Assembly: GCA_013306675.1 (NCBI GenBank)
Contig: JABLUY010000210.1
Location: 1 to 64,000 of the forward strand
Source of the DNA: Thraustochytrium sp. TN22
Lineage: Eukaryota > Sar > Bigyra > Thraustochytrida > Thraustochytriidae
DNA length: 64,000 nucleotides
Reading direction: 5' to 3'
The notes below the pieces were generated by a model. That model was not told the origin of the DNA. It was given only the letters and a program-made list of their open reading frames with translations, and ran no database searches. Each line of letters starts with the position of its first letter. Within the stretch, counting starts at the first letter, position 1. The translations under genes and the position numbers were made by a program. Below are positions 3,345-37,830 of the stretch, piece after piece.

Positions 3345-4997
3345 CTTGTCCCTTCCCGCGACAGACGCAAAGAAACAACGCCAGTCGCGACCGAGCTTCT
3401 GCCAACCCAAGGCCGCGCCACGCCAGCTACGTGCTTGCTAGCTCGCACGAATGCACTGCCTGCTGGTCGTCTTGCCCCTGCCTGGCGGCTCGCTCGCTGC
3501 AGGTGGGCGGGCGTGTGCAAAGCAGTTCGTGGTCTGCCCGGCGCGCTTGCGACCACGGCCCTGCCGCGCGCGATCTTCGAACCTCTGAGTCAGCTCCAGT
3601 GGCGCCACCAACGCGCTGCGCAGTCTAGCCGAGGTAGTAGAACTATCATGTGCATTCCGAGTCATGCTCGTCCGCCAGGTCCTCGCCGCCGTGCCGCCCT
3701 CGCTCGTGCTCGTCGGGTCCAACTCGCTGCGCGCCCTGTCGGACCAGGCGGCGGCTCCTGGTCCGCCACCCTGGCCTCCGAGTCGTCCCGCGTGCGCAGG
3801 TCCGCTCGCCGCCGCCGCCGTGCAGCCTACCTCGGCGGCGTCCGAGTCCGAGCCTGTCGGAGGCGTCGCGCGCGCGAAGTTCGCGCGACTCAGAGTTCAA
3901 GTTGGGCGACTCAGTCAGGAACTCCAGCTCGCGCACGAACCGCACGAAGCGCCACGAACATGCTCAGGCCGCCAGTGTGAGGAACTTGAACTTGATCAGC
4001 TGTGAGCAGCTAGCTGTGAGGTCGGGTCCGAGTCGTCCTGGCCGGTCCGGGCGGAGGCGGCCGGAGGCGGGCGGAGGCGGCTCGACCGCGGCACATTGGC
4101 ACTGGTGCCACGTGCAGCCGTCACTGATCACGGTCGCCTCCCAGTGGCAGGACTCGGAGGTGCGGCGGCGGCGCCATGGGTCAGAAGCGACCGGCCCTTG
4201 AAGCGCCGTGACTCAGACTTGGGACTTGGAATCGGATTTGGACTCGGACTCGGACGCGAGCGTCATGGTGACGCGGTCCTAGGCCGCGCATTTCGCTGCA
4301 GTGGGTGGGCTGTGGTCGTGGGAGGCCCAGCCACTGCCGCGCGTGGAGATAGATGCTCGAGCACCTTGCTCATGATCAGAGACAATGGAAGACGTGCGTC
4401 CCAACACTATACCTGGCACGAGAACGGCGCACGAGGCGCTGCAAGCAAGGCCAACCCGAGTCAACAAAGTGTTTGCGACAAGCTGGTGAAGAGAGAGACG
4501 CTCGCGGAGCTCACGTTCGCTATGCTTCTTGAGAGTCCAACGCTAAGCTCCGCGTCTCCAGTCAGTGTACGAGCCAGCATTTGCTTGGAGCGTGGCAGCC
4601 GCATCTGGATCAGAGCTAAGGGACCCTGGCGCCCTGACACCCGTGGCTTTGGTTCAAGTCTTGTTTGCAGAAGCCAGCTACGGACCACCAAGAGAAAGTC
4701 TGGCTCATTCGCAGCAGTTCATGGTCCGCTTGTCCTGACGCCCGTGGCTCAGGGTTCAAGTCTTGTTTGCGGAAGCCAGCTACGGACCAGCAAGAGAAAG
4801 TCTGGCTCATGTCACATCAGGTCATGGTCTGCTTGTCCTGACACCCATGGCTCAGGCTTCAAGTCTCGTTTGCGGAAGCCAGCTACGGACCAGCAAGAGA
4901 AAGTCTGGCTCATGTCGCAGCAGTTCATGGTCCGTATGTCCTTCCATAATCAGGATTTTCGTCACCGCACTGTGAGCTGGCTTTCTGTCGCTCGCAG
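3345..4997. other. Intergenic, no gene supported; contains a 102-bp tandem repeat
   Basis: This lies between the start of the second acyl-CoA synthetase and the stop of the WRKY19-like gene, both on the minus strand. Several open frames cross it but none shows a domain or consistent codon pattern. The main structure is the tandem repeat at about 4630-4940, listed separately. The rest is GC-rich single-copy DNA. Confidence 0.5.
4630..4940. repeat. About 102-bp tandem repeat, three copies
   Basis: The word ttcaagtct(t/c)gtttgc recurs at 4653, 4755 and 4858, giving a 102-103 bp period. Copies share the core gaagccagctacggaccancaagagaaagtctggctca. The unit sits 60-370 bp past the 3' end of the WRKY19-like gene. 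A 102-bp unit keeps frame, but copy spacing is not strictly 102 and no product is recognisable, so I treat it as a minisatellite. Confidence 0.85.
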
Positions 4998-6039
4998 TCA
5001 CGAAGTTCCAGCCACCGGACCCCGGAAGCAATCGGCCGGATCACAGCGCTTGCCGCCACCGTGTGCAAAACACAGCTGAAGACTGCCACTCCTGGCCCCC
5101 TTGCCACAATTCGGATATTTGCAGCGCCTCCCACCCCCATGAGAAATGCAAAAGGGGCCTCCACCGCACGGAGCTAACCTGCCGCAGCCTGCGTATTGGC
5201 AGCGCCGGCCGCCTCCATGCGCGCCGCACAACGAAGGGTCTCCGGCCATGGCGCCCTTGCAGCAGCCAACGTGCTGGCAGCGTCGGCCGCCTCCATGCGC
5301 GATGCAAAAGGGAAAGCCAACCTTTATGGCGCCTTTGTTGCAGCCTTCATGCTCGCAGGGCCGTCTGCCATCGCGCCTGGGGCGCAGAGTACGGCGGCCA
5401 TCCACGGCGGCGCTCTTTTCGCTTTCTGCATGCTGGCAATCGCGCCCGCTGGCACGCGCCTTGGAGCAGACAGCTCCACATGCCTTGCTACAGACGTCAG
5501 GCTTGCTACCCCGCCTGGCTCTGTGCGCGCTGCAGAGCCGGTTACCGTGTTGGACGATTGCGTCGCAGCCCGCTTGGCGGCAACGTCGCCCAAATGCATG
5601 CATCACGCAGAGCCCCTTCAATGCGACGGACCTGATGCACCCAGGCGACCTGCATCCCTTTGCAGACGGAGCTGGCGCCCTTCGACTTTGTCCGCTTGCA
5701 GTCTCTGCGCCCGTCGTCAACCTTGCATCGTCTACCGCTGCCAGCTCATCCATCTTGACGACATCGTTGTCCGGCACGCTGTACCACAGAGAGGCGTCCT
5801 GCTCAATATCGACAAAGTGCTCCGGCAGCTCGAACTTCATCGCGGGCATCTCCACGTCGATGCGCCTCACTTTGCCGCGGGGCCCAGATTCGGCCGAGCC
5901 TTCCTCCGGTGTCTTGCGCTTGCCCGTCCTCACGTGCGGGTTTGCGCAACTGCCGGTAGCGACCTCAGGTAGCGCGGATGTAGGGCCGCATCCGGCAACA
6001 CGTCCCGTCCTCGAGCGCGGCGAGTCCTGGGCGTTAGCA

Positions 6040-11642: not shown

Positions 11643-14600
11643 TTACAGCAGAGCCTTGTCCTGGTCGGAGAGTGACACCCGCGCCGCCGAGTAATACGGC
11701 GCCATAATGCCCGACACCGTGTGCTGGAGCCCAAGCACATGGCCCACCTCGTGCAAGCAGACCGCCTTGAGCACGAAGCGGCGCGCGCCGGGACGGGGAC
11801 GCGGGGCGTGCCGCACAGACGAAGACGCGCAGACCCAGCGCTCCGCAGCATCAAAGGTGATGGACCGCGCATCGGCACGGGCCAGCTCGCCACCCGGCCC
11901 GTCAAAGACCATGGCGTTGGCAGCCGTGTGGTCGGCCCAGCCAATCACCACGTCGGCGGCCTCGCGGCTCGCAGCCACCTCAAAGGCCACCTTGCCAGAG
12001 CTGGACCACTCCGCCAGCGCCTCCTCCACGTCACGCTCCACGTCGGCGCGCGCCAGGTATCCGGGGCTTGGGCCGAGGTGGTACGTGAGTTGCTTCGGGC
12101 AGGTCTCGAGCGCGGCTGCCACAGGTTCCGCCACATCCGCGCGCGCGTCAAAGCGTAGCGCTGCCAGCGACGCCCTCGTGACCGGACCCACCACGCCGTC
12201 CTGCCGAAGACCGGCAAAGCGCTGCACATCAGCGATGGCCGCGCCCGTCTTGATACCCGCGTCGCCGTCCAACGCGCCGCCGTAGAACCCGCGCCGCGCC
12301 AAGAGCGACTGCACGCCAGTCACGGCGGCCGCCGCCGTTTTGGGCGCGCCCTGCACAATGGAGGTGGCCCTCACCGCGGCGTCCTCGGCCGGGCCGACCA
12401 GCTCGGGCGCAGGGATCTCCACGTCTGGCCCGAAGACCGCCTGCACGTCCTCCAGCATCACAAGCTGGCCGCACTCGTCCTCGCAGACCGTGGCCAGCAC
12501 AACCGCCTCGTGTCGGCTTGCCAGCCCAAGGCGCGCCAGCACGGCGTGCAGCTCGACGCGCGCGTCCACCACGCGGTTCTCGCGGCAATTTGCGCACGCA
12601 GGGCCCTTGCCCCCGAAGAGCGAGCAGGCCCCCGCGTACGCCGCGACCTCCTCGGCCCATGCGCCAAAGGCGTCCGCGTCGCCGCGCTCCACGGCGGCCT
12701 GCACCTCGGCGCGCCGCGCCGACACCTCCTCGTCGCCTAGCGCCGCCGGCCGCAGAAACACGTGCAGGTCGAAGCTCTTCATCTCGCCGCTGGGGTCGCG
12801 CAGCTTGGTCGCCACGTCCACGGCGCGGAAGAGCGCGAACGCCGGCCGCTCGCGCAGCTGCTGCTTGGGCCGCGCTGGCAGCGCGTCGTACGCGTAGCCC
12901 AGCTCTGCCAGAGGCAGTAGCGTGTGCTCCAGCATGAAGGGCCCGCCGCCCAGCGCCTCCGGCAACGCAAAGGGCGCCAGCTCCTTGAAAAAGAGGTTCT
13001 CGCGGGACGTCTCGGCTTCCGCCGCGGCCGCCTGATGCGCGCGAAGCTCCGCCATGCACTCCTCACGGCCCTCCATCTGCAGGTACTTTTCGTACTGCCG
13101 GTCTGCGTTGCAGTGCAGCAGCCAGAACATCGGGTGGAAGGCCGCGAACCGCAGCGACGTTAACGGGAAGCCGAGGCAGTTGTGCGTCGCGTTGTGCGGC
13201 GACTCCACCGACTCGCCCGCGCGGTTCTCCGTCGACGCGTGCTGCCAGTGCTCCGAATTCTGCACCGCGTCCAGGCACGCGCGCGACTTCTCGCGCACCT
13301 CGCCGCTCTGCAGCTTGCGCAGCACACGCCGGTCCGAGTTCAGTCGCGAGAATTGCGTCTCCATGAACATTTTCACGCGCCCGGACGGCTCCTCGTCGCT
13401 CTCGTCGGAGGGAGGAAAGAAGTTCTCCGGGAAACGAAAATCTTCCCCAAATGCCTTGCGCACGCAGTGTGGCACCACCTGCCCGCGCACCTCGTACCGC
13501 GCAAAGTCCCAGTATGGCAGCGCCATGCGGCCGTCGCGCCCCAGCGCGCGGTCTGCCTTTTGCAAAGCCACCTCCATCTCCAAAAGGTATGCGCGATGCC
13601 AGCCAGGAAAGGCCTCTGCGCGGTGCACGCAGTACCCGCGTCCCGCGTTGCTCGGCCACCCATGGTACCCGGCCAACCGCAGCCATTCGGATCCGCCCGT
13701 CTCGTCGCTCTTCATCAGGTGCTGCACCGCCTCCACGAAGCGCATCTGATCCTCGTCGCCCATTTCACGAATCTCCCGCCGCACGACAGCCGCCTTGGCA
13801 GGCGGGGGCAGTTGCAGGAGCTGCTCGATCTGTGAAACTTGCTGCTGCTGCTGCTGCTGTTGCTGCTGCTGCGGTAGCTGCTGCGGTAGCTGCTGCGGTA
13901 GCTGTAGCTGCGGCTGTTCCTGCTGCTCCTGCGGTAGCTGCAGCTGCTCCTGATTTTGCTGCAGCTGCTGTGGCATCACCATCATCTGCGCAAGCGCCTG
14001 CTGCCGTCTCTGCGCAAGCTGCTCCAGGCCATCGGGACTTGCCAAGGAGCACAGCTCCGCAAGCAGGGTGTCCAGCTCACCGGCCCGCACGCTCGACCAT
14101 AGACGATGCAGAAGACTAGAGTGCTCACCTTTTTCTTTGAGCGCGAACTCGACTGGGTTCGCCACCTGTGCTGCCGCAAACTCGCGGATCAACTGAAGCG
14201 CACCCTTGAGCACACGGATGCAGTCCTCACGCGGGCCAGACGTAGGCATCTCCTGCAGCAGCTCCGCAACCGCGGCCTCCGCCTCGTGCATTCCAGCATT
14301 CTGGAGAGCGGCGTCGCTCGTTGTGTCACGAGGTTCCAGCCATGGCGCGGAACCGTCCACGCTCACCAGGAGGCGCGCAGCGAAGGGCAACGACCCAGCC
14401 GCAGCCAGGTCCAGCAGGGCCGAGTGGCCCCAGTTCTCGTCTGCAAGGACGGTAGCGCTACCCACGATTGCATCCTCGTCAGGGGACGCCTCGGCGCGGC
14501 CCTTGGAGTCCATAAGCTGCACGACCACCTCATCCGCCAACCTGACCTTGTCTAGCACCAGCTCCTCGCCGCCCCACGACGGCACCGTTGTATCATGCAC

Positions 14601-14870
14601 CACGGCCGAGACCGCGCGCGCCTCGCTGCCCGCGCGCGCGAGCACATACAGCCCGGGCTCAGGCCCGCTCAGCGCGCTCGACATGACCTCGAGCGCGCCG
14701 TACAGCTTCACGCTCCAGCGCGCCGTGGCAGCCTCGCGTGCCAGCACATCCAGCAAAAACGTCTCGGCGGCGTCCATCAGGTCGGCGTGCTCCAACGCAC
14801 GCACCTCCTCCGCGAGTGTCGCCAGGTCGGCATTTTGCTCGCGCAGGGCCACGGACGCCGACGCGCCCAT
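11643..14870 (-). CDS. C2-like / tyrosinase / peptidoglycan-binding-like / matrixin fusion protein
   Basis: A 1,075-residue protein with an ATG at 14870. Residues 1-9 (MGASASVAL) fit an N-myristoylation site. Residues 50-180 look like a C2 domain (inferred). Residues 300-345 are Gln-rich. Residues 399-600 form a type-3 copper (tyrosinase) domain: CuA candidates H403, H416 and H425 (HRAEAFPGWHRAYLLEME); CuB H559, H563 (HNATH) and H586 (FWLLHCNADR). A Cys-bearing tyrosinase C-terminal region follows. Residues 845-905 match a peptidoglycan-binding-like helical domain (LLARRGFYGGALDGDAG). Residues 925-1075 are a matrixin zinc protease with HEVGHVLGLQH (1040-1050) and Met-turn GIMAPYY. PGB-like plus matrixin is the usual metalloprotease arrangement; its fusion to a tyrosinase is unusual. 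No signal peptide is seen, at odds with a secreted protease. All catalytic ligands appear intact. Confidence 0.88.
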   Translation of the reverse strand: MGASASVALREQNADLATLAEEVRALEHADLMDAAETFLLDVLAREAATARWSVKLYGALEVMSSALSGPEPGLYVLARAGSEARAVSAVVHDTTVPSWGGEELVLDKVRLADEVVVQLMDSKGRAEASPDEDAIVGSATVLADENWGHSALLDLAAAGSLPFAARLLVSVDGSAPWLEPRDTTSDAALQNAGMHEAEAAVAELLQEMPTSGPREDCIRVLKGALQLIREFAAAQVANPVEFALKEKGEHSSLLHRLWSSVRAGELDTLLAELCSLASPDGLEQLAQRRQQALAQMMVMPQQLQQNQEQLQLPQEQQEQPQLQLPQQLPQQLPQQQQQQQQQQQVSQIEQLLQLPPPAKAAVVRREIREMGDEDQMRFVEAVQHLMKSDETGGSEWLRLAGYHGWPSNAGRGYCVHRAEAFPGWHRAYLLEMEVALQKADRALGRDGRMALPYWDFARYEVRGQVVPHCVRKAFGEDFRFPENFFPPSDESDEEPSGRVKMFMETQFSRLNSDRRVLRKLQSGEVREKSRACLDAVQNSEHWQHASTENRAGESVESPHNATHNCLGFPLTSLRFAAFHPMFWLLHCNADRQYEKYLQMEGREECMAELRAHQAAAAEAETSRENLFFKELAPFALPEALGGGPFMLEHTLLPLAELGYAYDALPARPKQQLRERPAFALFRAVDVATKLRDPSGEMKSFDLHVFLRPAALGDEEVSARRAEVQAAVERGDADAFGAWAEEVAAYAGACSLFGGKGPACANCRENRVVDARVELHAVLARLGLASRHEAVVLATVCEDECGQLVMLEDVQAVFGPDVEIPAPELVGPAEDAAVRATSIVQGAPKTAAAAVTGVQSLLARRGFYGGALDGDAGIKTGAAIADVQRFAGLRQDGVVGPVTRASLAALRFDARADVAEPVAAALETCPKQLTYHLGPSPGYLARADVERDVEEALAEWSSSGKVAFEVAASREAADVVIGWADHTAANAMVFDGPGGELARADARSITFDAAERWVCASSSVRHAPRPRPGARRFVLKAVCLHEVGHVLGLQHTVSGIMAPYYSAARVSLSDQDKALL

Positions 14871-15309
14871 CCCCCCGCGCCCTTCTCGCTTCAGTCAATC
14901 CCTGGACCGCGCAAGCAAGCCCAGCTCGCGCAGGCCCACGAGACGTTGACACGACTTTGGTGTTTGCTCTGCTCGACAGGTCCCACCGAGGTGGCAGGCC
15001 GGGGTGGGCTTGCCGAGCGAAGGGACGCTCATCCGCGGCGCAGGTTGCGCCTCTCCGCAGCGGGTCGAAGGCGCGGCCGCGCGCGAGCGAGCGCTGGGAC
15101 GCCGCGGCGCGTCGCTGCGGCGTCCGGGACTGTCTGAAACATTCTGGACGCGCGCCAGGACTTCGGACCTCGCTCCAAACCTCTCTGGCAGGGCAGGCTC
15201 CCGGCGCGCTCTCGCAGGCGCAGCGGTCGTGCGCGCGGCGCAGGCGGCGGCGAGGCGCGGCGCACGGGGTCGCGCGCTGCGCACTGACCGTGAGGCGGCC
15301 GCTGGCACG
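14871..15309. other. Divergent intergenic region, no gene seen
   Basis: This is the shared 5' region of the tyrosinase-matrixin gene (minus) and the phosphatidylinositol synthase gene (plus). A ctgaccgtgag word lies about 23 bases before the start codon of the latter. Confidence 0.5.
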
Positions 15310-15924
15310 ATGCAGGTGCCCGTGGTGCTGTACGTGGCAAACATCATCGACTATGTGCGCGTGGCCTTTCTGTACCTGGCGTACGTGGCCTTCGAGGAGG
15401 GCGATGGATGGCGCTTCGCCATGTGGTACTCGCTGAGCTACGTGCTGGACGCTTTTGACGGCATTGCGGCGCGCGCGCTCAACCAGACGTCCAAGCTCGG
15501 GTACTACTTGGACATGATCATCGACCGCGTCAGCACGTCGCTCTGCCTGCACCTGGCCGCGCAGCGCGTGCTACAGGACCTCGAAAAGCCATATGGCACC
15601 TTCGCCGCGGCTGGCTTCTACGCCTGCCTCGTCATGGTGGAGATTGTTGCGCACGGTGTTGTCATGTACCTGTCCGAGGTGCGCAACATCCACCAGAAGG
15701 AGATGCCCGGCAGCGCCATTGTGCGCCTCTACCTTGGCAACAAGACTATCCTCTTTTGGGCCTGCGTCAGCTTCGAAGGCGCGCCGCTTGCGCTCATCAT
15801 CGGCGAGCCGCTCTGGGGCCTGCCCTTTGCGCCAGGCTTTATCTTCCGCGCCCTCGCCAACCTCGCGCGCCTGCGCGATATCATGTTCTGGAAGCCACAG
15901 GAGGCCGCCGTCAAGCAGGACTGA
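15310..15924 (+). CDS. CDP-diacylglycerol-inositol 3-phosphatidyltransferase (phosphatidylinositol synthase)
   Basis: A 204-residue integral membrane enzyme with an ATG at 15310. It carries the CDP-alcohol phosphatidyltransferase signature DG-x2-AR-x8-G-x3-D-x3-D (residues about 50-72: DGIAAR, then KLGYYLD and MIID), with all four aspartates. It has several hydrophobic segments and ends in a short charged tail, close to the usual 200-220 residues of eukaryotic PI synthases. Family knowledge: it makes phosphatidylinositol from CDP-diacylglycerol and myo-inositol on the endoplasmic reticulum. The N-terminal VxLYxxNIIDYxR pattern is typical of PI synthase rather than of choline- or ethanolamine-specific relatives. 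Confidence 0.92.
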   Translation: MQVPVVLYVANIIDYVRVAFLYLAYVAFEEGDGWRFAMWYSLSYVLDAFDGIAARALNQTSKLGYYLDMIIDRVSTSLCLHLAAQRVLQDLEKPYGTFAAAGFYACLVMVEIVAHGVVMYLSEVRNIHQKEMPGSAIVRLYLGNKTILFWACVSFEGAPLALIIGEPLWGLPFAPGFIFRALANLARLRDIMFWKPQEAAVKQD

Positions 15925-16119: not shown

Positions 16120-17685
16120 TCACAAAGGGTCCCAGGCTTCCATGTCCCGAAGCTCCTCCTTCCCCAGGCTGAGAAAGTCGACCAGGCGCGACCACTCGAA
16201 CGCCGGCACCGCATTGATGCTCTCCTGCTCAATATGGAGCGCACGGCCCCGATCCTTCCACTCGGTCAGCGCATCCACAACGAGACCGAGTGCCGTCAAC
16301 TCTTCTTGCGGACCGAGCAGAGGGTCTTGGCAGGGCCGTGCCCAGCGCGGGTCGCGGAGCGCGCCATGGTGCTCGCGGGTAACAAAGACGCCGCGCACGC
16401 CAGCTTGCTCGCGCAACATCTGCGCCGGGCTCGCAAACCACCTCCCGGGGGGCAGCATGGCGTCATTGCAAAAGTCTACGCTTGCATTGAGTACCCGGGG
16501 GACCTCGCCACCCCGCTGGCAGCGCTCGCCAAAGGGAAGAGCCACGTGCTGCACGGTGATGGTCCTATTGGCGCTCGTCCTCACACCGATGCAGTTGGGC
16601 CGTGTCTCGTCCCATAGTGCGTCGCGCTGGATCGCCTTGGCAATGCTCCGCGCCACGAGCTGAGCCCCGGAGGCCTCTGTGCCGAAGACAAGAACGCCGC
16701 CAAGCGGTGCCCTCTCCGTAAAGATAGCCGACTTGGGCGCGTGCCTCCGTACAGCCGCACTCCCCTTCCCGTCAAAGCTTGCCGTATGTGCCTTGGTGGG
16801 CGCCTGCGTCGGCCGCGCTTTAACAGTGCGCTTCGCGTGGGCCAAGATCAACTGGACGATGCGCGTCCACTCGAAGCTGGGCACGGTTGAAAGGCTCTCT
16901 TCCTGGATGTGCAGCACGCGCTGTGCAATGTCGGGCTGAGAAAAGATTTCCTCGACGAGCGCCAACGCCGTCTTCTCCTCCGCGAGGCCAATCTCCACAT
17001 CCTGGCACGGGCCCGGCATGGTGCGGTCCCTCAGCGCCGCGGGCCGCTCGCGCGTCATCACGATGGCGAGCGCCGACGCGTCGCGGCGCAAGAGCTGCGT
17101 CACATTCGGGAAGATGCGACCCTGCGGCAAGTCGCCGCACGCGTCCACGTCGTCCACCACCGTGGCTGTCGTCGCGCCGGCCTCTTCGCACGAGAGCCCG
17201 AGCGGCAGCGACAGGTGCTGCACCTGCGCGCGGCGCCCAGACCCGTACTCAAGTTCCATGCAGGCCGGCCGCTTGGACTCCCAGAAGACCGCCTCGCCCT
17301 GCAGAGCCGCGCCCACGCGCTCCGCGAGCTTGCGCGCGCCCGAGGCCTCGGTGCCGGCGACATAGACCACGCCGCCGTGCGCCTGGCGCACGAGCCCGAC
17401 CTCGCCGCTGGCGGCCACGGCAGAGTCAAGCAGCGTCCACGGGTCGATCAGCGACGCCAATTTGAGCCGCTGGTGGCGCTTGGTCTTCATGGCCTCAAAG
17501 AAGGCGCGCTTCGTGCGCACGGCCAGTAGCATCACCGTGCACACCACCGCCAGCGTCAGCATCTGGGCCGAGCGGGTCCGCGGTGGCCACCAGCGCCAGG
17601 CTTGGGCCTGGCCTGGGGCCCGCCGCCGCCCGTCGCCGCCGTGCTGCCGCCGCGCCGTCGCCGCCGCCGCCGCGCGCCGCGCCAT
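16120..17685 (-). CDS. Tandem-domain sulfotransferase-like type II membrane protein (TEASGA subfamily)
   Basis: A 521-residue protein starting at the ATG at 17685; the longer frame starts with a GTG. A basic N-terminus precedes one membrane anchor (about residues 41-57, MLTLAVVCTVMLLAV), which suggests a Golgi/ER lumenal type II protein. Two homologous P-loop domains follow, each with GTEASGA (5'-phosphosulfate-loop position), QHxxLPxG, a conserved Cys before the distal loop, and a TRExxxALRD motif. In typical sulfotransferases, and in the paralogues here, the last position of this 3'-phosphate motif is Ser (ALRS). Here it is Asp in both domains. Family assignment rests on these motifs only. 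Loss of the Thr and Ser positions suggests altered or lost cofactor binding. Confidence 0.75.
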   Translation of the reverse strand: MARRAAAAATARRQHGGDGRRRAPGQAQAWRWWPPRTRSAQMLTLAVVCTVMLLAVRTKRAFFEAMKTKRHQRLKLASLIDPWTLLDSAVAASGEVGLVRQAHGGVVYVAGTEASGARKLAERVGAALQGEAVFWESKRPACMELEYGSGRRAQVQHLSLPLGLSCEEAGATTATVVDDVDACGDLPQGRIFPNVTQLLRRDASALAIVMTRERPAALRDRTMPGPCQDVEIGLAEEKTALALVEEIFSQPDIAQRVLHIQEESLSTVPSFEWTRIVQLILAHAKRTVKARPTQAPTKAHTASFDGKGSAAVRRHAPKSAIFTERAPLGGVLVFGTEASGAQLVARSIAKAIQRDALWDETRPNCIGVRTSANRTITVQHVALPFGERCQRGGEVPRVLNASVDFCNDAMLPPGRWFASPAQMLREQAGVRGVFVTREHHGALRDPRWARPCQDPLLGPQEELTALGLVVDALTEWKDRGRALHIEQESINAVPAFEWSRLVDFLSLGKEELRDMEAWDPL

Positions 17686-18639
17686 CTTCGGTTGCAGTCT
17701 GCGCGAGGCGGCGGGCGTCCAAACAGCGCCAAGGTGAACGGCGTACAACACCGCCACCACTGGCACTCCCACCGCCACTCGGCTCTAGTTAACGTTAAGG
17801 ACGGGACAGTGACATTCACTGCACAGCCTGAGTCAAGTGCTGCCGTGCTGCGACTCGCAGTGCCGCGAAGCTGCTGCGAATCGAGGGAGGCCGGGCCCGC
17901 CGGCGCGCGAGGGCGTGGAGGCGCCGACCCGGAGTCAGGCTGTGATGATGACAGTCTGCCAGTCACAGTGAGCACTGAGCTGCACGCGCAACGGGCAGGA
18001 CTTGACTTGCTTGCAGTGCAGGCGGCTGTGGCCGCAGAGCGCCGTGACTGGCCCGGCGGCAGGCTGGTGATGAATGTCTGACCGAGGCCGACGCTGGCAG
18101 GGCTGCGGTCGAGGATGCCTGCTTCAAGCTGCGGCTGGCTGCGAGGACAAAAACGAGGAAAGAAGCTTTCGCGGCGTCTCGTTGGCGACGGCAGCACGGG
18201 AGACCTGCAGGTGGGCGCAGCGTGGCAGTACAGAGCACCTACGCGGGCCTCTCGATGAAGGTGAAGGTGCTGGCTACGGAGCGCTACGAGTCCTGTGCTT
18301 TTCAATTAGCGAAAGGAGCCCTGACTCATGTCAGGACTGGGAGCGGAAGTTCTGCACAGTGCTGCATATGAGCGCGACGAAAGCGCCTTGACCGTGAGCG
18401 CAGACCGCAATCGCAGTCGCCGACGCTTCGCTTCGTCGTAAGCGCAACGTCGCGCAGGCGCAAGGGTTTCGTGGCCGCTCTGTCACAGGACGACGTGGAC
18501 GCGGACTCCGAGCCACAGTCAGACAACGACCGCGGCACGCTCGCGGCGCGTTGCCGCAGAACGCGAAAGTCAGCCGCTGGGCTGGCCCGGCCACGGCTGC
18601 AGCAGGGCGCGGGCGCGGGCCGGCGCCGCCACCGCGGCG
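17686..18639. other. Divergent intergenic region between two tandem-domain sulfotransferase-like genes
   Basis: Both neighbours read outward. GACAGTGA (17805) and TGACCGTGA (18391) words are present. The open frames here carry no recognisable domain. Confidence 0.5.
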
Positions 18640-31200: not shown

Positions 31201-32007
31201 TGCCCCTTGGGCGGCGCCGGCCGACAGCGACGGCGAAACAAGAATGACGAAAGGGGCGTGCAGGCGTGCAGGCCCTCGGCACCCCCCCACAATACATGCG
31301 GCGTGCAGGCCCTCGACGACGCAGTCCAGATCCACCTCCGCTTCGGCTTTCCGTCCGCGTCCGCTTCGGTGGCGAGGCTGACCAGCAGAGGGCTCAGCAC
31401 TGCACCCGGTGCACCGGCCAATGATCTCAAGCAGCGTCTCTCCTCCACCCGCTGCCGCCGCCGCCCTGCCACGGTCTGACTGCCTGGCACTCGATCCCGC
31501 TGCGCACGCGTGCGCTATCTTTCACCCCTCTTGATCCCTTCCAAGGCTTCCTTCCACACAGCCCGTGACCGCGCCAGGACCACTTCAAGTACATCGCCCG
31601 CTGCCCCGTACTGTCCATCGGCTGCGCGAGCCTCGCCTCGCCGTGGCCGCCAGGACGAGAGCGCCGGCCCGCAAGCGATGGCGAGCAAGCCTTGGCCAAG
31701 GCCAGTCCTGGCCTTCTGTCGCTGGTGCTGATGAAGGACAGCAGGGAAGAGATGGACAGGTGTGCGCCGGGTGTGGGAAAGACGCGCGGACCCCGCTCGC
31801 CCGTCTGCAGGATGGACGGGATCGCCGTTGGCCTCCGAGGCTTGAGGTTGCCCGCTTCGTCCAGGCCAGCAAACCCGCGGCTGGCGCGCCTCGCGCGGCG
31901 GACCCGGGCGCGGCGCGGCGGCGCGTCGCGGCGGCGGCGCGCAGCGGCGCGCGGCGGCGCGGCGCGCGGCGGGCGCGCGAGGCGGCGACGCGGAATTTTG
32001 AAAAATC
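28231..32007. other. Longest gene-poor stretch, repeats only
   Basis: It holds the 5' flank of the duplicated sulfotransferase-like gene, GCTAGCTAGCTAGC at 28527-28541, the ggcga array (29080-29231), and then about 2.2 kb of single-copy DNA. Small AT-richer patches occur (for example 30270-30295, containing aataaag). Open frames crossing 29.4-31.9 kb lack domains, start signals and consistent codon use. A 51-residue ATG frame at 30938-31093 is too weak to call. Bases 31900-31985 are a gcgcggcgg ladder just 5' of the TPR gene. Confidence 0.5.
29080..29231. repeat. Near-perfect (GGCGA)n pentanucleotide array, about 30 copies
   Basis: About 150 bases of uninterrupted gaggc/ggcga units. On the minus strand this is (TCGCC)n, about 850 bases upstream of the sulfotransferase-like start at 28230. 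It is open in several frames, which creates spurious Arg/Gly/Glu- or Ser/Pro/Arg-rich frames. Confidence 0.95.
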
Positions 32008-35000
32008 ATGGGCGCCGGGACGAGGGCATGGGGCATGATGCCGCGCGCGCGCGGGGGCAGGACCAGAAGGACGCGCGCGGCGCTGGCCGCGGCGGTCGTG
32101 GCGGCGCTGGCCGCGGCCGCGGCCGCGGCGACGGCGCTGGCCGCGCAGGACGCGCACGCTGCAAGGCCGGCAGCGAGGGACGCGCTGCGGGACGTGTGCG
32201 GCGCGCTGGACGGGACGACGCCCTTCCCGGGCCACGAGGTGGACGAGGCGCTGCGGAGCGCGAGGGAGAGCGCCAGGGAATGGCAAATCGCCGTCGAGAG
32301 GGAGCCGAGCGACGCCAGGGCCATGGAGGCCCTGGAACGCGAGGCGCAACGCGCCGAGCAGGGAGCACGAGCCAAGGACGAGCTGCAGCGCGCCGTCGCG
32401 GCAGCGGCGCGCGGCGCCTGGTCCGACGCGCTGCGCGCCGCGCAGCACTTCGCGGCGCTGGCACCGGCGCTGGCGCCCGCGCAGGAGCGGCGGCCGCCCG
32501 CCGCCGGCGCGCGCTTCGTGGAGTGCGTGCGGGCCGAGTCGCTGCGGCACATCGGCGACAAGGCGCGTGCGCAGCGCGCCTTCCAGGACCTCCTGGACGC
32601 GAGCGCGCACGCCAGCGCGCCGTGGCAAGAGGCGCGCTTTCGGGAGCGTCTCGCCGTGGCGGCTGGCCGCCTCGCCTTTGAGCGCGGCCTCCTTCTCGAG
32701 GCGCTGCACCTGTACGAGCGCGCGCTGCGCGAGGTGCCCGCCTCGCGCGAGGCGCACAAGGGGCTCGGTCTGTGCTACGATGCCCTGCTGGCGCTGCGCG
32801 AGCCGGGCGACGACTGCGACCCCGCTACCGCTGCCGACGCTGCCGAGGCCGCAGCGCAGGACGCGCATGCCGAGGACGGGACCTTGGCGCCGACGGCCTG
32901 CCACCTGCGCCGCTTCGTGCGCCGCAATGCGCCGGCGCCCGGTGGCGCCCACCACCGCGAGGACGCGCCCGCGCCCGGCCTGCTCTCGCAGCGCGCGCTC
33001 GAGCACCTGCAGCGCGCCATGGCGGCCGGGTGCAACGACGTCCACGTCATGGTGCGCGTCGGAGCGCTGCTTGCGCAGCGCCAGGAGTGGCAGGAAGCCG
33101 CGCGCAGCCTCTCGCGCGCCGTCAAGCTGTGGCCCAACGCCGCCGCCGCGCACCTGCAGCTGGCGCGCGTGCTCCGCGCCAGGAGCCACGTGCTGCGCCA
33201 CGAGGCCGCCGCCGGCCTGCCCGGTGGCGCCGCGGCCGCGGCCGCCACGCGGGAGGCCGACGCGCTCATGCGCCGCGCGCTCTCGCACCTGCAGCAGGCC
33301 GTCTGGCTCGAAGACGCCCCGCTCGCCGAGGCCGCGCGCCTTGACCTCGCGCGCCTGCTTCTCGACATGCACCGGCCGGCCGAGGCTGCGCAGGCACTCG
33401 AGCACGCGCAAATGCACGCTCGAGCGCACGCACATGACCATGGCCCGGCCATCTCGAACGACGTCCGCGTGCTCTACGCGCGCGCGCGCCTCGAGCAGGG
33501 TCTCGTGCGCGAGGCCGCCGACCTCGTGCAGAGCCACCCTCGCACCGGCGGCCTGGACCCCAGCCTGCTGCTCCTGCGCGCCGACGTGCTGCTCGCGCAG
33601 GCCGAGCCGGCCAAGGCTCTGGCCGCCTTCCAGGCTGCGGAGAAGGAGGCGGTCGAGGCCGAGGCGGCCGGCGGCGGCGGCCTCGCGCTCCTCTTGCGTG
33701 CGCGCGCCGGCCAGGGCCTGGCGCTCCTGCGCTCGGGCGCGCCCGACCAGGCCGCCGAGGCGTTCCGCGGCGCGCTTCGCCTCGCCGAGGACGACGCCCA
33801 GGCCAACCTGGGGCTCGCGCAGGCGCTCGCCGCCCACGGCGCGTCGGCCCAGACTACGGCCAGCTTCTACTGGGCCGCCTTCATCGGCCAATTCGCAGGC
33901 CACCTCGGCAGCGCGCGGGTGCACATGGACGCGGCCGACGCGCTCGCGCGCGCCGGGATGCATGCCGAGATGCGCGCCGTGCTGCACGCGGCCGCGGCGC
34001 TTTGGCCGGCCGACGCCGCGCCCATGAAGCTGCTCGCCAGGCTCGCCACGGACGAGGCCGAGGTCCAGGCCGCCTGGCAGCGCGCGCTGCACGCCGACCC
34101 GCGCTGCGTCGATTGTCTGCTTGCGCTCGGCCGCCTGCATCTCGCGCGCGGCCGCCTGCACCGCGCGCTCGAGAGCTTTGCGGCCGTGCACCACCTCGAC
34201 CCGAGCCGGCCCGAGGCGCACCTGCTCACAGCGCGTGCCCAGGCACGCCTCGACCAGGTCGACCAGGCGCAGGACAGCCTGCGCCTCGCCATTCATCTGG
34301 CCGCCGACCATGAGGACGACCGTGAGGTCGCCCTCGAGGCGCGCATCGAGCTCGCCACGCTCCAGGTCCGCCTCGGCGCCGCCGCCACCTCGCTGCGCAC
34401 GCTGCAGGAAGCCGAGGCGCTCGCGCCGCGCAGCCCCATTGTCCACCGTACGCTCGCGCTCCTGCTTGCGGCGCTCGGTCAACCGGCGCTCGCCAAGGAG
34501 CATGAGACCGCCGCCGCGCGACACTTCGGCCCGCTCTCCGGCCCGCATTCGTCGTCGTCGTCATCGTCATCGTCATCCTCGCCATCCATGCCGCTCCCGC
34601 CTTCGCCGCGCCTGCCGGGCGTCCCCGCGGGAACGGTCTGGCCCGACAGCGAGGCGGCATCCGCAGCGTCGGCGGCGGCCTCGACGACGTCCTCGTCCGC
34701 TACTGCGGCCGGGAGCAATCGCACGCACGCGCGGGGCCCGCCGGCCAACGACTCGCGCGTGGCGCGCGCAGCCAAGGCCGGCGTGCCGCTCTCGCGCGAC
34801 GTTGGCGGCCTGCTCAGCCTCGGCCGCTTGTTCGCCGCGCAGCGCGCGCTGGACGCCGCCGCCGACTGCTTTGAGCATGTCATCGCCCACGAGTACTCGC
34901 CACTCGTGCCGGTGGCCGAGCTCGAGCTTGGCGTCGTGCTGCTCTCCATGGGCGACCGCCACGCCGCCATGGACCACCTCACGCGCAGCCTCGCGCACCT

Positions 35001-37830
35001 GCCAGAAAACCATGCCGACCACCTGCGCGCGCTGCTCTGGACGGCGCACGCCGAGGGCGACCTGCGCCGCCTCGAGCTTCTGCAGCGCGCCGTGGCGCTG
35101 CACAACCACGACGCGGCGGCCCACCACGCGTTCGCCGTTGAGCTGCTCAGCCGCAGCGCCGGCGCCTACGCCGGGGGCACCGCCGCCGCCGCCTCGACCA
35201 GCAGCGAAACCGACGGCGACGGTGCCGAGGCCGCTGCGCTCGAGGCGCTCGAGGAGGCCACGCTGTGCACCGTCAACAACATGACGCGTGCCGCCGCCGA
35301 CACCTACTACCGCTTCGCGACGCTCACGGCGAAACGCCGGCCGGACCAGACGGAGGTCGTCGTGGATCACCTCACGCGCGCGCTCGCGTTCACCACCGCG
35401 CACCGCTCCGGTCTGCCGCGCGACGCCATCGCCGGCGGCGCTCCCGACGTCGAGGATGGCCTGCCGTGGAGGTGGGCCTTCGACACCACGGATGCCATGC
35501 ACGCGCAGGTGCTGCTGGCGCTCGGCCGCGCCAAGCGCGCGCAGCGCCGCTTCCAGGACGCCTCTGACCTTCTTGTCGACGCCATTGACGCCGGCGCCGG
35601 CGTGCCGGCGCTGCGTGAGCTCAGTCTCGTCTACGCCGCCAACGACCAGGTCGGGCCCGCGCTGTGGTTCGCGCGCGTCTCTTCGGTCTCGGACGCGGCC
35701 TTTGCTCACAGCGACGAGCACCTGCTTGCCGCGCTCCGGGCAGGCGGCCATCTCGACGCGGCCGCAGTGGCGCGGGGCGACGTCGACGACCTCGTGAACC
35801 GCGGGCTCTACGACGAGGCGCTGCGGGTCGCGCAAAAGGACGAGCGACAGCGCGCCGCCACACCGCGCGTGCTCACGGCGCGCACCAAGGCGCGCGCTGC
35901 CGCCGACTACGCCGTGCAGCTCGCGGCGGTCCCGGAGGACCGCGCCCGCGCCGTCGAGGCCATCGACCAGGCGCTCGAGGGGCGCGGAGCACGCGCCTAC
36001 GCGGTCGCACGTGCCGTCGAGGCTAGCCCCGACGCCGCTCACGCGCTGGCGGCCACCGCGCGCGACCTGCAGGACCACGCGCAGGTGGCCCTGGCTCGTG
36101 GCCGGGCGCTCGCGCGCGACGGTGCGCCGGACGCCGAGGTGGTCACCGCGCTCGGCGCCGGCCTCGGCCTGGAGTTTGCGGACTACTTTGACCAGGACGA
36201 GACGGCGCGCGACAGCTTCGTGGCGCACGTGCTCATCGCGGAGCAGGTTCTGCGCGGGCCGGCGGCGTCCGGAACCCCGGCCGCCTCGGTGGTCAAGCAG
36301 TCTCGCGTGGAGGCGGCGCTCCACGCCGACCTGGCCCGTGCCCGCATGCGCCAGGGCATGGCCATGCGGGCGGCCATGCACGCGTGGTGGGCGCTCATCC
36401 TGCAGATGCAGGACACCGCGGCGCCGCGCGAGGCGCACGCGCTCGCGGGCTGGGCCTGTCTGGCGGTCTCCAAGAGCGCTGCGGCCGACCTGGCCGCCCG
36501 CGTGCGCGCACTTGCGCTCTGGCACTTTGGCGCGGGCGACGTGGCGGCCGGCCGCGCCTATGCGCTCCAGGAGGAGGGCCGCGCGAGCGAGGCGCTCGCG
36601 GTCTTCGAGCGTGGCGAGGCCGGCGTGACGAGGCCTTGCGACCTTGCCGCCCGCGGCGCCGCGTTGCTGCAGACCGGCCGCCTCCAGGAGGGCCAGGCGA
36701 GTGTGGAGCGCGCCTCGCTTGCGCTCGCGCGGGCGAGTGGCGACTTCGACGCGGAGGTCTTCTTTTGCCCCGCGGACAACTTCTTGGAGCACGCGTGGCG
36801 TCTGCAGCGCGAAGGGGCGCCGGCGGCTGCTGCGGCCGCGCTGGACGTCCTGCAGCGCAGGGTGCACCTGAGCGAGCCGCAGCGCGCCACCGTGCGGTAC
36901 GCGAAGGGCAGCCTCGCGTTTCATCTCGGGCGGTTCGCGGAGGCGGTCGAGGCGCTCGGGCACCCGAGCCTGGACGAGCACATCGGCGCGGCCAACAACC
37001 TGGGCGCGGCGCTCATCAAGCTGGAGCGCTACGAGGACGCCGTGACCTGCCTGGAGCGGGTCCTGGCTCTCTGCGACGCGCGCGCCACGCAAGTGGACCT
37101 CTGCAAGCAGAGCGCGCGCGTGAACCTTGCGCTCGCGCTGGAGGAGCTCGGCCGCATCGAAGACGGCCTCGTGCACGCACGCGCCGCGGAGATTGCGCTG
37201 CAGAGGGACGCCGCAGTTATTGCTGCGGGCTCGTCAGCCGCTGCCGCGAACGGGGACGACGCTGGTGTGGGGCTGCAGTCGCAGCCGGAAGGCGAGGGCT
37301 CGGCGCAAATGCGCGCCGCGCTCGCGCGCCAGATGGCGCGGCTGTACCGCGCATCGAAGCGCGTCGGCCTCGCAGTGCGCGCGCTGCGCGAGCACCCCAA
37401 GGACGTGGAGGCCATGCGGCTGCTGGCCACCATCCTCGCGGACTCGGGCCAGGATGAGGAGGTCGTGCGCGTGTACCGCCGCGTCCTGCTCTTACACTTG
37501 AACAACACGGCGCTCGCGGTCGTGGACGCGCTCCCGTCGCGCGCCGTCCTGCGCGCCGAGGTGCGCGAGGCGCGCGTCCTCCTGGACCTCGCCAATGCCT
37601 ACTTTCGCGTCGGCCGCTACGACGAGGCTGTCTCCTTGTACGAGATCGTCACGGATGCTTTTCCGACGCACGCCTCGGACGCCGAGAACAACCTAGGCGT
37701 CATTGCCTATAGCCGCGGCCGCCGTCGCGACGCTGAGGATCATTTTGCGCGCGCGCTCCGCCTCGATCCTACCAATGAGGCTGCCGGGGCTGCGCTCGCC
37801 CACCTGCACGCCAAGCCTGGCGTAGCCTAA
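32008..37830 (+). CDS. Giant TPR-repeat protein
   Basis: A 1,940-residue single-exon protein with an ATG at 32008. Residues about 22-46 are a basic stretch followed by an Ala/Val-rich hydrophobic segment (signal peptide or anchor), so the repeats are probably lumenal or extracellular. Most of the rest is helical tetratricopeptide-like repeat: for example ALHLYERALREVPASREAHKGLG (N-terminal), ALGRLHLARGRLHRALESF (middle), AANNLGAALIKLERYEDAV and ANAYFRVGRYDEAVSLYEI (C-terminal). A Ser-rich linker near 848-861 and a low-complexity segment to about 910 split it into two solenoids. No catalytic domain is seen. Family knowledge: TPR solenoids scaffold protein complexes. It has no recognised named orthologue. 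Confidence 0.85.
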   Translation: MGAGTRAWGMMPRARGGRTRRTRAALAAAVVAALAAAAAAATALAAQDAHAARPAARDALRDVCGALDGTTPFPGHEVDEALRSARESAREWQIAVEREPSDARAMEALEREAQRAEQGARAKDELQRAVAAAARGAWSDALRAAQHFAALAPALAPAQERRPPAAGARFVECVRAESLRHIGDKARAQRAFQDLLDASAHASAPWQEARFRERLAVAAGRLAFERGLLLEALHLYERALREVPASREAHKGLGLCYDALLALREPGDDCDPATAADAAEAAAQDAHAEDGTLAPTACHLRRFVRRNAPAPGGAHHREDAPAPGLLSQRALEHLQRAMAAGCNDVHVMVRVGALLAQRQEWQEAARSLSRAVKLWPNAAAAHLQLARVLRARSHVLRHEAAAGLPGGAAAAAATREADALMRRALSHLQQAVWLEDAPLAEAARLDLARLLLDMHRPAEAAQALEHAQMHARAHAHDHGPAISNDVRVLYARARLEQGLVREAADLVQSHPRTGGLDPSLLLLRADVLLAQAEPAKALAAFQAAEKEAVEAEAAGGGGLALLLRARAGQGLALLRSGAPDQAAEAFRGALRLAEDDAQANLGLAQALAAHGASAQTTASFYWAAFIGQFAGHLGSARVHMDAADALARAGMHAEMRAVLHAAAALWPADAAPMKLLARLATDEAEVQAAWQRALHADPRCVDCLLALGRLHLARGRLHRALESFAAVHHLDPSRPEAHLLTARAQARLDQVDQAQDSLRLAIHLAADHEDDREVALEARIELATLQVRLGAAATSLRTLQEAEALAPRSPIVHRTLALLLAALGQPALAKEHETAAARHFGPLSGPHSSSSSSSSSSSPSMPLPPSPRLPGVPAGTVWPDSEAASAASAAASTTSSSATAAGSNRTHARGPPANDSRVARAAKAGVPLSRDVGGLLSLGRLFAAQRALDAAADCFEHVIAHEYSPLVPVAELELGVVLLSMGDRHAAMDHLTRSLAHLPENHADHLRALLWTAHAEGDLRRLELLQRAVALHNHDAAAHHAFAVELLSRSAGAYAGGTAAAASTSSETDGDGAEAAALEALEEATLCTVNNMTRAAADTYYRFATLTAKRRPDQTEVVVDHLTRALAFTTAHRSGLPRDAIAGGAPDVEDGLPWRWAFDTTDAMHAQVLLALGRAKRAQRRFQDASDLLVDAIDAGAGVPALRELSLVYAANDQVGPALWFARVSSVSDAAFAHSDEHLLAALRAGGHLDAAAVARGDVDDLVNRGLYDEALRVAQKDERQRAATPRVLTARTKARAAADYAVQLAAVPEDRARAVEAIDQALEGRGARAYAVARAVEASPDAAHALAATARDLQDHAQVALARGRALARDGAPDAEVVTALGAGLGLEFADYFDQDETARDSFVAHVLIAEQVLRGPAASGTPAASVVKQSRVEAALHADLARARMRQGMAMRAAMHAWWALILQMQDTAAPREAHALAGWACLAVSKSAAADLAARVRALALWHFGAGDVAAGRAYALQEEGRASEALAVFERGEAGVTRPCDLAARGAALLQTGRLQEGQASVERASLALARASGDFDAEVFFCPADNFLEHAWRLQREGAPAAAAAALDVLQRRVHLSEPQRATVRYAKGSLAFHLGRFAEAVEALGHPSLDEHIGAANNLGAALIKLERYEDAVTCLERVLALCDARATQVDLCKQSARVNLALALEELGRIEDGLVHARAAEIALQRDAAVIAAGSSAAAANGDDAGVGLQSQPEGEGSAQMRAALARQMARLYRASKRVGLAVRALREHPKDVEAMRLLATILADSGQDEEVVRVYRRVLLLHLNNTALAVVDALPSRAVLRAEVREARVLLDLANAYFRVGRYDEAVSLYEIVTDAFPTHASDAENNLGVIAYSRGRRRDAEDHFARALRLDPTNEAAGAALAHLHAKPGVA

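Follow-up and report, generated by a model that had tools for sequence, protein, structure and literature searches.

A gene on the minus strand of the 64,000-nucleotide stretch analysed here, referred to below as the window (Thraustochytrium sp. TN22, contig JABLUY010000210.1, positions 1 to 64,000), encodes, in one unbroken reading frame, a tyrosinase followed by a peptidoglycan-binding-like (PGB) domain and then a matrixin metalloprotease. Pfam searches of the predicted protein returned Tyrosinase (E 1.7e-26), PG_binding_1 (E 6.1e-11) and Peptidase_M10 (residues 926-1072, E 7.6e-25), all above their gathering cut-offs, and the same domains follow in the same order in a paralogue elsewhere in the assembly, confirming the fusion that an earlier note on this DNA had read from the sequence. 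The C2-like domain that the note had placed at the N-terminus was not returned by these searches (PF00168, no match at E ≤ 1). Between the two enzymatic halves lies a probable shielding domain, which the note had not remarked on and which is the part of the protein bearing most on function: with it, the tyrosinase is likely a zymogen lying beside a protease.

Read on the minus strand, the open frame runs from 14894 to a stop at 11643 (1,083 codons from stop to stop), with its first in-frame methionine at 14870 (MGASAS...), and third-position guanine plus cytosine (G+C) content along it ranges from 0.73 to 0.92 in 600-base steps. Chance would not be expected to yield so long a frame, the longest frames in 20 null sequences (third-order Markov model of the window) being 429-752 codons. 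Two neighbouring genes could nevertheless have been mis-joined, or an assembly artefact could have arisen, and be read here as one frame; long antisense frames are common in this window because its DNA is about 68% G+C, and frame length by itself is therefore a weak argument against such a join. However, the paralogue carries the same order in one unbroken frame of 994 residues on another contig, C225 (C2 at residues 67-157, E 5.8e-17; Tyrosinase 324-509; PG_binding_1 755-809; Matrixin 841-990), and is flanked by genes for a BSD-domain protein and a WD40 protein, unlike the window gene, beside which stand genes for a CDP-alcohol phosphatidyltransferase and an AMP-binding enzyme. Identity between the two proteins is 39% overall (44% in the tyrosinase, 40% in the middle and 37% in the PGB-matrixin part), and the region between the halves is conserved between the copies and carries the probable fold expected after a tyrosinase core. 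Exon-by-exon six-frame searches of the assembly (37.9 Mb, 453 contigs), whose counts are lower bounds as introns can hide matches, found at least two tyrosinases, at least two matrixins and at least two PGB domains over cut-off, and every match found falls within one of these two genes. With all matched domains confined to two genes of the same order, an artefact is very unlikely, and we assign it next to no weight. Contamination is likewise unlikely, since the neighbours of both genes look eukaryotic. The unbroken frame, together with the equally unbroken frame of the paralogue, suggests a single transcript.

All six copper-binding histidines of the tyrosinase core, arranged in two motifs, are complete in both copies, and in the window protein they occupy the residues that the earlier note had assigned to them (Table 1). 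The core also contains Cys414-x-His416, a pair capable of forming a thioether, and a cysteine stands at the Cys-x-His place in both copies. The best single-unit sequence scores were obtained with molluscan haemocyanin (about 41 bits), with fungal polyphenol oxidase 4 (PPO4; 39.7 bits) close behind. In the passages cited from PMC3658974, the alpha subclass of type-3 copper proteins, in which molluscan haemocyanins are placed, has a signal peptide, while the beta subclass has none and is listed without a Cys-His bond, as are the chromalveolate tyrosinases. The predicted starts of both copies agree with the beta trait of having no signal peptide, whereas the Cys-x-His pair departs from the beta listing, and the tyrosinase appears, on its sequence, to fit the rules of neither subclass. 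A tyrosinase on the cytosolic side of a membrane, which the earlier note had regarded as a real puzzle, is a smaller one than claimed, given that these passages recognise a subclass without signal peptides.

The region that follows the core probably represents the C-terminal shielding domain of type-3 copper proteins. This assignment draws on a structural model of the equivalent region of the paralogue (predicted local distance difference test, pLDDT, 64.6), which matched by fold the C-domains of haemocyanins and pro-tyrosinases; the top six matches were all haemocyanin units, and the C-domain of MdPPO1 was among the others. Foldseek gave an E value of 0.25. Sequence searches of Pfam and PDB with the shielding region gave no match, and a whole-protein AlphaFold model built from two sequences (pLDDT 31.8) was not used for any inference. 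A phenylalanine (F752 in the window copy, F659 in the paralogue) and a CXXC motif (C759/C762 and C666/C669, respectively) are conserved, with a spacing that resembles that of Agaricus abPPO4 (comparison residues Phe454 and Cys462-Cys465, from an excerpted account). The loop resembles that of fungal pro-tyrosinases, and the tyrosinase half is probably a latent zymogen. Eukaryotic tyrosinases are described in the passage cited from PMC6563526 as being made latent and activated by losing their C-terminal shielding domain.

In both copies the PGB-like domain directly precedes the matrixin catalytic domain, and the pair resembles a matrix metalloprotease with its pro-domain. This metalloprotease module directly follows the shielding domain, and the matrixin in cis is a candidate for the activating protease. 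Its site is complete in the window protein, with the zinc motif and the Met-turn methionine where the earlier note had put them. A different reading is that the matrixin half, at least in the paralogue, is mainly a regulatory or binding module instead of a working protease, and that other proteases, lipid or acid activate the tyrosinase. In its favour, the paralogue carries an additional residue ahead of the third histidine of its zinc motif (HELGHVLGLRTH), so that this histidine comes one position late, and the spacing from histidine to methionine is two residues shorter in the window copy than in the paralogue. In addition, the structural-zinc histidines of animal matrixins are not conserved, and there is no cysteine switch: the conserved RxDARxDxAxP loop, compared with the cysteine-switch motif PRCGVPD, has no cysteine in either copy. 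An aspartate-type switch, which occurs in some bacterial matrixins, is possible in this loop. However, the window copy retains the full zinc motif and the methionine, and both matrixins lie well over the Pfam cut-off. We consider a mainly regulatory or binding role for the protease half rather unlikely.

The N-terminal heads of the two copies show only weak similarity. Both copies open with MG...SV (MGASASV in the window protein, MGSGQSV in the paralogue), a start that fits the N-myristoylation consensus, so that the possible myristoyl site of the earlier note is upheld at the level of motif, and the assembly contains a match to N-myristoyltransferase. The first approximately 50 residues of the two copies are not significantly alike (195 of 1,000 shuffles score as high), so that the common opening may or may not reflect constraint. 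For the C2 region, 13 of 1,000 shuffles reach the score of the real pair and blastp gives an E value of 0.067; a search of the assembly with window residues 1-289 recovered the window gene as the sole match and missed the paralogue. The note's C2-like domain is thus weakly supported, by way of the clear C2 domain of the paralogue and not by a match of its own, and a C2 origin of the window copy's head is likely, if weakly shown. Set against the C2 consensus, the aspartate ligands of both calcium loops are retained in the paralogue (DADAFSPSD, DDDRYSEDD), while the first set is lost from the window copy.

Inspection by eye of the N-termini and upstream DNA revealed no signal peptide at the predicted start of either copy nor, in the three frames read across the 460 bp that precede the window gene, any hydrophobic leader. 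Both enzymes might instead share an outside target, being exported without a classical signal or through an upstream exon to the wall, the scales or the ectoplasmic net, and would remodel the matrix there by proteolysis and quinone cross-linking without the matrixin activating the tyrosinase. Matrixins are usually extracellular, and a short hydrophobic, methionine-containing stretch lies in another frame upstream of the paralogue. However, this stretch is ended by a stop and has no counterpart seen upstream of the window gene, the first methionines of both copies open MG...S, and C2 domains are mostly cytosolic. We regard this reading as rather unlikely.

The reading that we prefer, tentatively and at rather less than even chances, is a self-contained one, in which a pro-tyrosinase, probably recruited to a membrane, brings along its own protease. 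The chain would run from a possible myristoyl and C2 head through a Gln-rich linker to the tyrosinase core, the shielding domain and the PGB-matrixin module, of which the domain content and order, the conserved motifs and the paralogue are computational results and the shielding fold is probable; latency, membrane attachment, self-activation and biological use we infer. The shielding domain would plug the tyrosinase core and load it with copper, so that the enzyme would be made latent with the phenylalanine loop over its copper site, and the latent form would be held at a cytosol-facing membrane selected by the N-terminal lipid and the C2 domain. On the simplest reading the matrixin, once its own inhibition lifts, would cut the exposed linker or the shielding domain at the junction between tyrosinase and shield, in cis or on a neighbouring molecule, and the freed tyrosinase could generate quinones at the membrane that serve in defence, sealing or cross-linking. 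In the paralogue, the altered zinc motif weighs against self-cleavage of that copy. A more elaborate version, which we consider improbable, is a one-chain, membrane-tethered zymogen relay in which the matrixin is the dedicated activator in cis and the controls are split between the copies. In this relay the window copy would combine an intact protease site and a degenerate C2 domain, the paralogue a calcium-type C2 domain and an altered protease site, and activation of the calcium-recruited copy might come in trans from the protease-competent one.

Table 1. Features of the tyrosinase-matrixin gene, in window coordinates and residues of the predicted protein
Feature	Residues	Coordinates	Strand	Basis or remark
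Whole coding frame	1,075 aa + stop	11643..14870	minus	intron-free reading suffices
Candidate N-myristoylation signal at the N-terminus, MGASASV (G2, S6)		14850..14870	minus	paralogue starts MGSGQSV
Degenerate C2-like domain	~53-140	14451..14714	minus	aligns weakly with the paralogue's Pfam C2
Gln-rich linker	~300-345	13836..13973	minus	read from sequence
Tyrosinase core; CuA H403/H416/H425, CuB H559/H563/H586	394-597	13080..13691	minus	Pfam
Probable C-terminal shielding (beta-sandwich) domain	666-826	12393..12875	minus	model of the equivalent paralogue region
F752-GGKGxxC759xNC762 loop, candidate placeholder Phe and CXXC copper-loading motif		12585..12617	minus	invariant in both copies
PGB-like domain (PF01471), as in matrixin pro-domains	849-902	12165..12326	minus	Pfam
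RxDARxDxAxP loop at the expected cysteine-switch place, without Cys	906-916	12123..12155	minus	conserved
Matrixin catalytic domain	926-1073	11652..12095	minus	Pfam
Zinc motif HEVGHVLGLQH, then Met-turn M1056	1040-1050	11721..11753	minus	sequence

Phage records gave no match, and the PHROGs matches all lay over the PGB part and its edges. A bacterial origin was rejected: in prokaryote contigs, 1 of 26 candidate stretches proved a relative and in the PGB part alone (six peptide patterns, covering close relatives only). A viral origin was likewise rejected: in viral contigs, scans with the whole protein and with the tyrosinase, run on one shared pair of patterns, yielded no relative among 20 candidate stretches, and the relatives from the PGB-matrixin scan (7 of 170 stretches) were all confined to the PGB end. 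Sixteen plasmid records matched, and the 15 among the matches listed all fell within residues 363-664 and covered at most 23% of the query. NCBIfam matches were all below curated cut-offs.

Upstream of the gene, a gap of 439 bp (14871-15309) separates it from the divergent CDP-alcohol phosphatidyltransferase gene (15310-15924, plus strand, ATG at 15310), and the two could share a bidirectional promoter. Beyond that gene, an open frame of 554 residues (16120-17784, minus strand) contains an apparent internal duplication, seen by eye (GTEASGA...VQH..LP.G twice), and gave no match in Pfam at E ≤ 0.01. A plus-strand open frame of 1,942 codons (32002-37830) lies where the window is richest in G+C, and two frames, of 991 and 886 codons, overlap it on the opposite strand. 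At the paralogue locus (L007), the matrixin lies at 4831-5280 and the C2 domain at 2509-2781. Elsewhere in the assembly, two near full-length PfaD domains of the polyunsaturated fatty acid (PUFA) synthase type, both over cut-off, lie on separate contigs (C124:42424-43761 and C415:117114-118451) in open frames of 2,083 and 1,719 residues. With the eukaryotic gene content, these matches point to a thraustochytrid-like labyrinthulomycete, against which stand the G+C values noted for labyrinthulomycete genomes (43-47% and 57%), far lower than the 68% of the window.

The earlier note had taken the architecture to be undescribed, which is doubtful, as the legend of Fig. 1a in PMC4707469, from 2016, includes PG and ZnMc in its key to the domains of proteins with a tyrosinase domain; the legend names no species and does not state that both occur on one protein. 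Compared by this legend alone, those proteins resemble the present one in joining a tyrosinase to PF01471 and/or zinc-metalloprotease domains, and the combination of tyrosinase, PGB domain and metalloprotease is probably not new. A literature search, mostly of titles and abstract openings, found no discussion of a tyrosinase-matrixin fusion, of a C2 or myristoyl head, or of a shield adjacent to a protease. A probable pro-tyrosinase and a metalloprotease in one chain make the question of the activating protease testable with one recombinant protein. In addition, the gene adds what may be, in a protist, a source of quinones addressed to a membrane, and a tyrosinase that apparently lies outside the rules of both the alpha and beta subclasses.

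Among known systems, Agaricus abPPO4 and the Aspergillus oryzae pro-tyrosinase share with the window protein, going by the passages on abPPO4, a core followed by a beta-rich domain (here a probable shielding domain), a phenylalanine (here a candidate placeholder), a CXXC loop and a Cys-x-His pair (here thioether-capable). No matrixin, PGB or C2 domain is known in either of them. The protease that activates abPPO4 is described in the passage cited from PMC4157443 as unknown in origin and type. The functional units of molluscan haemocyanins, which gave the best fold matches and single-unit scores, likewise combine a core with a beta domain, but haemocyanins are oxygen carriers of repeated units without a protease. 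Saprolegnia parasitica, an oomycete, is a stramenopile with tyrosinase domains in species-specific novel fusions, although the cited passage of PMC3681718 reports their enrichment in predicted secreted proteins and leaves the partner domains unnamed. Matrix metalloproteases (M10A) show the same succession of a PGB-like pro-domain and a matrixin with HExxHxxGxxH and methionine, whereas the window protein has neither a cysteine switch nor a signal peptide that could be seen, and bears a copper oxidase at its N-terminal side. PPO activation in vivo is, in the passage cited from PMC6563526, widely unknown apart from three insect enzymes. Apple MdPPO1 offers a parallel, since this self-cleaving pro-PPO needs no external protease to become active, although its cleavage depends on a linker peptide and not on a protease domain (passage cited from PMC6563526).
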